From assembly GCA_943788875.1 (NCBI GenBank), contig CALSSA010000001.1, forward strand, positions 186,001-250,000: a stretch of 64,000 bases of DNA. The letters are read 5' to 3'. The translations under genes were made by a program, and so were the position numbers. The stretch's first letter is position 1, and every line of letters begins with the position of its first letter. This DNA comes from an uncultured Pseudomonadales bacterium. GTDB taxonomy: Bacteria; Pseudomonadota; Gammaproteobacteria; Pseudomonadales; Porticoccaceae. Below the pieces are notes generated by a model. It saw only the letters and a program-made list of their open reading frames with translations, did not search any database and was not told the DNA's origin. Of this stretch, positions 7,331 to 9,622 are shown piece after piece.

Positions 7331-7837
7331 CTACTCCTCTCGCTCGAGATAGCGACGCCCAAGGTGGTAGGAACCCACCAGGCCTGCCAGTAACAACATT
7401 GCGGCGATTTCGACTGCCAGTACATAGGGGCCAAACAGTGCCAGACCCACTTCTTTTGCCGTGACCTGCTGACTGGACACTGGTCCTTCGATAGTGGAGA
7501 TCATATACAGCAGTTCTGCGAACAGCAGTAGCGATAGTAGTGCGGGGCCGGCCCAGATTTTTGGTTGCAGTAGCCCTCGCTCGCGGGCATCGCCCTCTTC
7601 TCCCAGATTGAGCATCATGATGACAAATACAAACAGCACCATGATAGCGCCGGCGTAGATTACGATTTCCAGGGCGGCTGCGAAGGGTGCGCCAATCAGG
7701 AAGAAGATCACCGCTACGGCGAGCAGGGAGACTATGAGGTAGATTAGAGCATGGATGGCGTTGGCTCTGGTCATGGCCAGTACTGTGGCTACCAGGGCTA
7801 TGGTGGCGGCTATGTAGAAGAGGGTTATCTCAAGCAT
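7331..7837 (-). CDS. nuoJ: NADH-quinone oxidoreductase subunit J
   Basis: A 168-residue protein with five predicted membrane helices, the NuoJ/ND6 family. The EIVIYAGAIMVLFVFVIMML segment is the conserved helix that bends during the catalytic cycle. It is separated from nuoI by about 294 bases that hold a repeat element (7907-8110), unlike the tight junctions of the rest of the operon. nuoJ may therefore depend on readthrough of a structured region. Confidence 0.96.
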   Translation of the reverse strand: MLEITLFYIAATIALVATVLAMTRANAIHALIYLIVSLLAVAVIFFLIGAPFAAALEIVIYAGAIMVLFVFVIMMLNLGEEGDARERGLLQPKIWAGPALLSLLLFAELLYMISTIEGPVSSQQVTAKEVGLALFGPYVLAVEIAAMLLLAGLVGSYHLGRRYLEREE

Positions 7838-7906
7838 GGCTTGAATCCTGTTTGGGCTTGGTGTGGGTTGGAAATGGGGGCAGTATGGTTCTGAGTTCTA
7901 CTCCGT

Positions 7907-7977
7907 TGACAGGCTGTGAATACCTCCGTGTAAGCTCGAGGCCATTGATCTTGATCTCAGCCACATCAATTACACGG
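7907..7977 (-). repeat. Structured repeat, unit 1
   Basis: Read on the minus strand, a 37-base core at 7943-7907 begins GGCCTCGAG and matches unit 2 at 29 of 37 positions by hand alignment. Just upstream on that strand lies a hairpin, ATTGAT (7970-7965) with ATCAAT (7949-7944). This hairpin is enclosed by CCGTGTA (7977-7971) pairing with TACACGG (7932-7926), the latter inside the core. The gene context is the nuoI-nuoJ gap. No protein is likely: the frames through it have no ribosome site and no family resemblance. Confidence 0.75.
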
Positions 7978-7996
7978 AACGAAGCTACCGAAACTA

Positions 7997-8110
7997 AGGC
8001 TATAGGTTTCCTAGGCCTTTCTGTGACCCTGGCCAGCAGGGATGCTGGCCTCGAGTCTACAGGGAAGTATTTACGACGTGTCACAGAAAGGCCTAGGAAA
8101 CCTATAGCCT
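7997..8110 (+). repeat. Inverted-repeat element holding repeat unit 2
   Basis: A perfect 31-bp inverted repeat, 7997-8027 against 8080-8110, frames this element. The arm ends read AGGCTATAGG on the left and CCTATAGCCT on the right. Inside lies a hairpin, GCCAGCA (8032-8038) with TGCTGGC (8043-8049). The 37-base core follows at 8047-8083. CCCTG (8027-8031) can pair with CAGGG (8060-8064), giving the same nested fold as unit 1. No target-site duplication is obvious. The element ends 21 bases from the corrected nuoI stop. It resembles a REP- or MITE-like dispersed repeat; other copies cannot be checked from this window. Confidence 0.8.
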
Positions 8111-8131
8111 GACAATCAACGCTCCAAACCC

Positions 8132-8648
8132 TCATGGCAACAAACTCTTAGTATCAATAGGCCGAGCCTCATTCCGACCCTCACCCTTATCCTTAAAAGC
8201 CGTCTGCATCCCAGACACCCGATAAAAATTATAATCCGGATACTTACCCTACCCCATTAATAAGCAGATTCTCCTTCTCATACACCATATTCTGGCGATC
8301 GTACTCACACATCTCAAAATCCGGTGTCAACTGAATAGCATAGGTAGGACAGGCCTCCTCACACATGCCACACATAATGCAGCGAGAAAAATTAATGCGG
8401 AAAAACTCCGGATACCAGGTGCCGTCTTCGCGGGTATCCTTTTGCAGCGCAATGCAATCCACCGGGCAAACAGCCGCGCACAGATTACAGGCCACACAAC
8501 GCTCCTCCCCATCCGGATCGCGGGTCAACACAATACGCCCACGATAGCGCGGAGCCAAATAAGGCATCTCTTCAGGATACTGCACCGTGTCAGCTTTAGT
8601 AAAGCTGTGCTTAAAGACTTCCCACATGGTTCGCAGTTCACTTAACAT
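8132..8648 (-). pseudogene. nuoI: NADH-quinone oxidoreductase subunit I, frameshifted near the 3' end
   Basis: This is the subunit with two [4Fe-4S] clusters that carries electrons toward the quinone. The motifs [15 protein letters not shown] and [12 protein letters not shown] supply the eight ligand cysteines. Read straight, the frame stops at 8244 after 134 residues, following LLINGVG. One base further, a second frame continues [14 protein letters not shown] and ends in IDTKSLLP at 8132, the usual NuoI tail. Removing one base in the G run at 8247-8249 or at 8246 gives a normal 171-residue protein. The start at 8648 has GGAGG close upstream and overlaps the nuoH stop (TGATG). A sequencing error is more likely than true loss. 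Confidence 0.88.
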
Positions 8649-9622
8649 CAGGCACCTCCCTCCATCCATAACAACACAGCACCAGTAATCACCAGATTAA
8701 CCAGCGTAATTGGTAACATCACCTTCCAACCAAGGGACATCAGCTGGTCATATCTGGGGCGAGGAATCGCCGCACGCAGCAGCACAAAGAAATTAATGAC
8801 CAAGAAAACTTTTATCCCAAACCAGGCAAGGGGCGGAAGCCAGTGACCGATCAGTGCAGGGCCCATCCAGCCGCCAAAGAATAAAGTCACAATCATGCAG
8901 GAAATCAGCATCAGTCCAAGATATTCCCCAAGCATAAACATAGCGAATTTCATGCCGCCATATTCAGTGTGGAAACCAGCGGTCAACTCATGCTCCGCCT
9001 CAGGCAAATCGAAAGGCAAACGATGACTTTCGGCAATGCCCGCAATCACAAACACCAGCAATCCCAGAACCTGAGAAAAACAGAACCAGACATCCGACTG
9101 GGCAGCCACAATATCCACCAGACTAAAGCTGCCCGACATCATCACCACACCCATCAGCGACAGGCCCATAAATACTTCGTAGCTAACCATCTGAGCCGCA
9201 GAGCGCAAACCACCCAACAGAGCATATTTATTGTTTGATGCCAGACCACCCAGCAACACGCTGTACACCGCCAGAGACGTCATGCCAAGGAAAAACAGCA
9301 GGCCAATATTGACATCGATAATCACCATATCCGGTGCAAAAGGCACCACCGCAAAGCCCATCATCATGGCCACTACAATCGCCGTAGGGGCAAAGATAAA
9401 TACCACCTTATCGGCAAATGGCGGCACCCAATCATCCTTGGTCAGCAATTTGATCATATCTGCCAACACCTGACCGATCCCAAAAGGGCCAAGGCGGTTG
9501 GGGCCATATCTGTCCTGCCAAAACCCCAGCAGACGACGCTCCCACCAGGTCAGTATCGCAGCACCGGCCACACCGCCCAGCAGAATGGCCAGAGCCAAAA
9601 AGACTGGCATTAACTCAGACAT
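8648..9622 (-). CDS. nuoH: NADH-quinone oxidoreductase subunit H
   Basis: A 324-residue membrane protein of the NuoH/ND1 family with about eight helices. It forms much of the quinone-binding chamber where the peripheral arm docks. The conserved loops [40 protein letters not shown] and [13 protein letters not shown] are present. The ATG at 9622 is preferred because GGAGG lies 8 bases upstream and the mature-looking start MSELMPV follows. It overlaps nuoG by a few bases and nuoI by one. Confidence 0.96.

Follow-up and report, generated by a model that had tools for sequence, protein, structure and literature searches.

Between nuoI and nuoJ, in a 64,000-nt stretch of the genome of an uncultured Pseudomonadales bacterium (the window; contig CALSSA010000001.1, positions 186,001 to 250,000), lie two related and mutually inverted units of a structured repeat family. 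The family overlaps two Rfam entries, Ysr224 and TwoAYGGAY, yet looks more like a mobile DNA element. As with the Yersinia YPAL repeats and other bacterial miniature inverted-repeat transposable elements (MITEs), its units are small, palindromic intergenic insertions near gene ends; unlike in these, the arms differ among copies, and no consistent target duplication was seen by eye. YPAL repeats reportedly serve as hairpins that process or stabilise mRNA. With repetitive extragenic palindromes (REPs), bacterial interspersed mosaic elements (BIMEs) and REP doublets forming hairpins (REPINs), the family shares an intergenic location, a palindromic sequence, many copies and close inverted pairs. 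It differs from them in that its unit measures about 110 bp, as against 20-40 bp for REPs, and has neither a constant GTAG tag nor a REP-associated tyrosine transposase (RAYT) beside it; GTAG appears only in the TAC/GTA version of one of the two core hairpins (HP1), not in the CCC/GGG versions (as judged by eye). REPs and long inverted repeats beside RAYT-like genes are described in Di Nocera 2013 (PMC3733652).

Ysr224 (RF02770) has the core in common with the family: units from Yersinia pekkanenii (L262) and Sodalis (L209) score 112 and 82.9 bits, respectively, over a cut-off of 70. It differs in that Rfam models the opposite (TCC) strand, as a small RNA (Yersinia sRNA 224). The window unit, at 20.7 bits, falls below the cut-off, and over 185 genomes of the class the entry gives weak matches in 17, none over the cut-off, and none at all in 14 control genomes. 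TwoAYGGAY (RF01731, in clan CL00106 with RsmY) is listed in a table row of PMC2864571 as a probable RNA that is probably not cis-regulatory, and a passage of PMC4333381 proposes that it binds CsrA. Its shape, two GGA-loop hairpins on an external stem, recurs in the family according to both covariation and loop counts, and one unit, L261, reaches 51.4 bits where the cut-off is 43, its weak Ysr224 match being on the other strand; the faster gathering search for TwoAYGGAY did not list this unit. Neither 7800-8250 nor 7980-8130 of the window gave a TwoAYGGAY match at E (expect value) up to 10, which leaves the window unit short of the cut-off of 43. Over 56 genomes, the window's own included, RF01731 matches three at E <= 0.01, and it matches none of the 14 controls; the sole genome over its cut-off has no match to our own model (R1, see below). 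The passages cited here treat TwoAYGGAY as an RNA; none presents it as a dispersed element that forms inverted pairs and has arms of its own in each copy.

One dispersed family of Gammaproteobacteria thereby connects two entries that Rfam files under RNAs. No single named family fits all copies, in line with an earlier inspection of the window's letters (the sequence-only reading), which had recognised none with certainty. A limited literature search on CsrA with repeats, on Marinobacter repeats and on variable stems met no such element, and one on the motif itself brought up just an unrelated paper; the element may still have been published. Of note, two loci of another genome (L340 and L341 in G053) represent a sibling subfamily with its own arms; the 58-nt core of L340 begins ACGCTCCTT, that of L341 is alike by eye, and both match TwoAYGGAY weakly, at 32-35 bits.

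The reading that we favour, tentatively and with somewhat less than even confidence, is a mobile DNA element of the REPIN/MITE type that is non-autonomous and acts through one folded strand. As single-stranded DNA, that strand would adopt a fold in which a long stem carries the two-hairpin core; a factor acting in trans would read the core loops and the shape of the stem, not the sequence of the stem.

A dispersed family with a constant core and covarying arms

Unit 2 of the window (7997-8110) is an intact element, in which perfect 31-bp inverted arms, found by inverted-repeat search and overlooked by the sequence-only reading, enclose 52 nt (Table 1). The z-score of its fold is -10.3 as RNA and -11.2 as DNA. 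Unit 1, spanning about 7883-7944, forms with it an inverted repeat of 38 nt at 79% (7907-7944 versus 8046-8083), bearing out the earlier observation that the two cores are shared. A consensus pattern from both units matches the window at these two units alone, against a mean of 0.00 in 100 shuffles.

A pattern search of the window's own genome (G000) gave 11 places at up to 3 mismatches and a backward control gave 10, so the number of matches alone proves little; L001-L008 look real. The seven good copies (L002-L008) all have exactly 52 nt between their arms, while the arms, 24-31 bp long and near-perfectly paired, mostly differ from copy to copy. In an ungapped alignment of own-genome copies, 95.5% of cells were paired and 27 pairs had changed on both sides, with a covariation of 0.811 versus 0.069-0.164 when the partners were slid. 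The covariance model built from the seven copies, R1, returned eight matches in this genome at E <= 0.001, i.e., the seven and L019 (37.5 bits), and scored unit 1 at 16.3 bits (E 3.9).

R1 matches 22 of the 56 genomes, the own genome included, and five genomes of the same order hold 19-68 matches each. When the DNA pattern was searched in genome contigs, at least 120 stretches were found; the 80 that were listed include Stenotrophomonas, Xanthomonas, Lysobacter, Marinobacter, Rheinheimera, Methylotuvimicrobium, Haliea, Saccharospirillum, Serratia, Yersinia and others. The family is scattered over many Gammaproteobacteria. A query of the 30-31-nt core had no match among plasmids, phages and E. 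coli genomes, and the exact DNA pattern had none in viral contigs; with the whole window element as query, phages gave nothing and plasmids gave three weak matches (E 0.2-0.6), of which one, in a Vibrio coralliilyticus record, covers part of the core.

Of 104 R1 matches, 94 were used (six same-place duplicates and four weak matches were left out), and a second set was drawn from 67 of 120 pattern loci, of whose 90 matches 69 were used and 61 distinct arms kept. When 96 distinct units were aligned by fitting them to the covariance model, 94.6% of cells were paired, all 35 pairs had changed on both sides, and covariation reached 0.997 versus 0.107-0.176 for slid partners. The covariation is real and very strong, and it is located in the arms and in the core hairpins of an element of about 110 bases, with a stem of about 27-31 bp around a core of about 52 nt.

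The sequence-only reading had proposed that compensatory changes keep the fold while the sequence drifts. Across the family this holds strongly, in the arms and core hairpins, and the GCCAGCA/TGCTGGC hairpin that it had drawn in unit 2 is among the structures that covary in further copies; between the window's two units it probably does not hold. The outer helix drawn there (CCCTG/CAGGG, or CCGTG/CACGG in unit 1) is not conserved: in the seven good own-genome copies none of its five pairs has changed on both sides, and two of them are disrupted, one in six copies and the other in four. The ATTGAT/ATCAAT hairpin of unit 1 is not ancestral, as at the same nuo place unit 1 of a relative (G021) is intact, its 52-nt core lying between 28-bp arms, and its second half is unlike the window's. 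The compensation between the two units is therefore probably a coincidence. The broader proposal, a dispersed structured element that is REP-like, MITE-like or an RNA, has stood: searching for more copies and building a covariance model, as had been advised, yielded many copies, frequent inverted pairs and covarying stems.

The inverted pairs are oriented one way. Of 31 two-unit clusters, 29 run plus then minus on the model strand (the strand of R1), none runs in the reverse order and two are co-directional. The spacers of the 29 inverted pairs measure 45-190 bp and hold short genus-specific inverted ends, e.g., TC.GTGCCA in several pairs of G037 (by eye). A different arrangement is seen at L201 (3110-3747) in a Saccharophagus metagenome-assembled genome, where four units with related arms form a direct tandem array. 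In L039, L081, L084 and L069, and in L239 compared with L206, HP1 contains inserts rich in hairpins, about 48 and about 80 nt long, as if its loop were an insertion hot spot.

Loop motifs and arm mismatches by strand

Among 161 distinct units, found by searches into which GGA itself was built, the HP1 loop reads CANGGANG on the complement of the model strand in 126 of the 145 with a placeable TCC (in 17 of the misses, the script seems to have slipped in the alignment), and the loop of the second hairpin, HP2, does so in 99 of 138. This motif coincides with the Rsm/CsrA consensus, A/UCANGGANGU/A, given in a passage of PMC6849547. Together with the TwoAYGGAY match of L261, the loops fit a dispersed CsrA/RsmA-binding RNA, i.e., a transcript of the GGA strand whose two hairpins would bind one CsrA/Rsm dimer while the stem presents the loops or protects the RNA. 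We consider this doubtful, in view of the mismatches within the arms.

Counted over 142 distinct arms of at least 20 bp each, transition mismatches on the model strand comprise 168 A-C versus 29 G-T, which amounts to an excess of G-T on the GGA strand. By a binomial test that ignores relatedness, p is about 5e-25 by site and, at 86 versus 11, about 1e-15 by copy; two sets counted by copy agree, with 43 versus 8 among 83 distinct arms scoring at least 15, and 43 versus 3 among 61 distinct arms. Splitting the A-C and G-T mismatches by the flanking genes gave 56:9 for TCC-sense, 31:6 for GGA-sense, 27:7 for convergent and 27:4 for divergent surroundings. The strand asymmetry of the arms is independent of the direction of transcription. 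For an RNA transcribed in cis, the excess would be expected chiefly at places where its own strand is transcribed, whereas here it is equally strong with the GGA strand antisense to the two neighbouring genes. Further points against a CsrA-binding transcript are that a solo unit flanked by co-directional genes is TCC-sense more often than GGA-sense (32 versus 17; p 0.044), that a scan of 7820-8260 found no promoter-like site at the units, and that the window unit does not match TwoAYGGAY.

The same asymmetry bears on a post-transcriptional mRNA element, in which the stem, lying between nuoI and nuoJ in the operon transcript, would serve as a hairpin for processing or stabilisation, free in sequence as long as it pairs. 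Such an element would suit the very stable fold and the position of units in housekeeping clusters, i.e., nuoI-nuoJ and what appear, from the protein sequences, to be atpG-atpD, the vicinity of rpsJ and iscS-ndk. An RNA acting in cis, however, should tolerate G-U on the transcribed strand, and an mRNA hairpin leaves the conserved loops and the one-way orientation of the pairs unexplained; we regard it as quite unlikely. The arm signal suggests a stage at which the GGA strand is folded as single-stranded DNA, as the favoured mobile-element reading would have it. Counting A-C against G-T arm mismatches by transcription direction thus provides a strand test that helps to separate RNA from DNA explanations.

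Copy-specific arms and their source

In one genome (G037), four units have cores identical at 52 of 52 positions, and the six pairs of their arms score 10-19, where shuffled arms have a median of 11, a 95% value of 17 and a 99% value of 19; one arm pair reaches 19. Units with identical cores can carry unrelated arms. Marinobacter units likewise have nearly the same core and unrelated arms at different loci. That the arms are merely older and have drifted is disfavoured by the four identical-core units of G037 with their unlike arms.

When orthologous arms of the window's genome and G021 are compared by eye, about 10 of 31 positions differ, and changes of several bases in one arm have their counterpart in the other. 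This would follow if template switching or intrastrand repair in replication (quasi-palindrome correction) kept the arms paired without any function, the core being a degenerate repeat. The L008 site in G028 is of the same cast, in that it has the look of a deletion by slippage between GATGC repeats, given that apparently decayed copies occupy the site in G025 and G029. Quasi-palindrome correction, however, gives no strand asymmetry tied to the orientation of the element, and leaves unaccounted for the identical cores beside arms hardly above shuffled likeness. We hold it to be improbable.

Evidence on mobility comes from the L047 site, which is filled in G021 and empty in G018, with flanks 93% and 89% identical. 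Together with the dispersal of the family, this comparison suggests that the element moves. At the empty site the arm is absent beyond its first 4 nt, GAGA, which argues against arms copied from the target. The L003 site in G021 still has some 20 bp of one arm, which might be a scar left by deletion or an arm that came from the target. A comparison of all loci lists further candidate filled and empty pairs, e.g., L048 versus L149; the presumed atpG-atpD site of G239 has no pair and is too diverged to judge. Two other sources of the arms were tried and rejected. For copying from elsewhere in the genome, considered for the L067 pair alone, no other full arm was found in G037 (97% complete) at E <= 0.001, the matches being the arm itself, core matches running a few bases into the arm, and some stretches at 70% identity. 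For a viral origin, two arms searched as exact 24-mers were found nowhere in viral contigs.

Given these results, it is conceivable, though we think it rather unlikely, that only the core is inherited and that many insertions come with a newly made stem, about 30 bp long and perfectly complementary, taken from neither the parent's arms nor the target, the folding of a single-strand stem being what is recognised. Several observations weigh against simple renewal. Some paralogues have common arms (L028/L082 in G016, L006/L007 in G000); at an orthologous locus of two species (L206/L239) the arms are better conserved than the flanks (by eye); the orthologous arms described above have drifted with matched changes; and the 5' arms are G-rich (G exceeds C in 91 of 142, the reverse in 38), so that the arms are not random. 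If these readings hold, Ysr224 and TwoAYGGAY, Rfam RNA entries on opposite strands, would be parts of one DNA element family, and renewal of the arms at insertion would be copying of a new sort; we know of no described mechanism for it.

As to what might move the element, a member of the REP/REPIN class mobilised by a RAYT (a Y1 transposase) would be dispersed, paired in inversion and hairpin-forming, as the family is, and Y1_Tnp genes are present in all five genomes with at least 19 units. They are found, however, in 10 of 22 carriers versus 13 of 34 non-carriers, so there is no clear association; 12 of the 22 carriers have no Y1_Tnp match (G000, G012, which is 82% complete, G021, G016, G002 and seven others). 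Only one of 17 fetched Y1 loci has a unit near it, at 28.5 bits. The other 16 led us to reject a RAYT beside the units, and with it the linked REP-associated transposase that the sequence-only reading had advised looking for. Mobilisation by a RAYT is accordingly disfavoured, as very improbable.

A number of points weigh against a mobile DNA element acting through one folded strand. A single clean empty site, that of L047, has been found; neither a transposase nor a partner gene was found beside the units, and no consistent target-site duplication was seen by eye beside 26 pairs. Clusters are mostly single units (92 versus 31 of two). Units found by R1 match Rfam families described as RNAs, and the core loops fit an RNA-binding consensus for which a DNA element has no evident need. 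The arm signal is lacking in the stem of HP2 (21 G-T versus 7 A-C on the model strand; 19 of the 21 G-T sit at the loop-closing pair, a free position of the loop motif) and in that of HP1 (3 G-T versus 2 A-C). A strand-specific mutation process could mimic the G-T excess, and the gene directions used to split clusters and mismatches come from a longest-open-reading-frame rule, not from annotation. Lastly, two of the five measures of structure applied to the 96 units do not or hardly exceed shuffles: further pair types number 118 versus 132 in shuffles, showing no excess, and changing pairs 35 versus 33.4 (13 of 500 shuffles), barely exceeding them.

The nuoI-nuoJ locus and side observations

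Table 1. Features of the nuoI-nuoJ region, in window coordinates.
Feature	Position	Strand	Basis or remark
nuoJ, downstream gene	7331..7837	minus	NCBIfam NF005162, 215.9 bits
Unit 1 (decayed), remaining outer arm	7883..7910	+	resembles G021 arm by eye; partner arm and HP2 gone
Unit 1 (decayed), first half of core, opposite to unit 2	7908..7944	+	HP1 at 7921-7932
Unit 2, left arm, 31 bp	7997..8027	.	perfect complement of 8080-8110; inverted-repeat search, RNA and DNA folds
Unit 2, conserved core, 52 nt	8028..8079	+	strand with GGA loops; strand of model R1 is minus
Unit 2, core hairpin HP2	8031..8050	+	8-bp stem 8031-8038/8043-8050, loop GGGA; CANGGANG at 8037-8044
Unit 2, core hairpin HP1	8058..8069	+	TAC/GTA stem; CANGGANG at 8060-8067
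Unit 2, right arm, 31 bp	8080..8110	.	inverted-repeat search
nuoI, upstream gene	8244..8669	minus	NCBIfam NF004536, 250.9 bits

Judging from the comparison of the two genomes, unit 1 is the decayed relic of an inverted partner of unit 2, because G021 holds an intact version at the same place. Among 21 nuo loci, all of a single genus, 14 have no unit, and the gap between nuoI and nuoJ then measures about 30-65 bp (by eye). The units lack the GC-rich hairpin followed by a T run of an intrinsic terminator, and a consensus scan of 7820-8260 placed no terminator-like site at either unit, its sole site being 7830-7844, at the start of nuoJ.

Two further nuoI-nuoJ loci (L108 in G011 and L109 in G020) have one unit each, with arms that partly resemble those of the G021 unit 1 and a core in the opposite orientation (by eye), as if the core had flipped between its arms. 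Elsewhere in the window's genome, L011 (C9, about 216179-216259) is a long inverted repeat around another, shorter core of 33 nt, resembling the family weakly at 18.9 bits. A second dispersed repeat, around AGATCCTTCGCTGCGCTCAGGATGAC, adjoins several units (in the flanks of L005-L008) and is very common in G029; a locus of that genome, L193, holds a very long and seemingly perfect palindrome that starts CGGAAAGTTAAAGCTCGG and is without the unit core (by eye). Finally, at the 3' end of nuoI (8132-8244), the window's stop comes earlier than in relatives, whose frames continue to a stop aligning near 8132; this looks like a frameshift or an assembly error near the 3' end of the gene.
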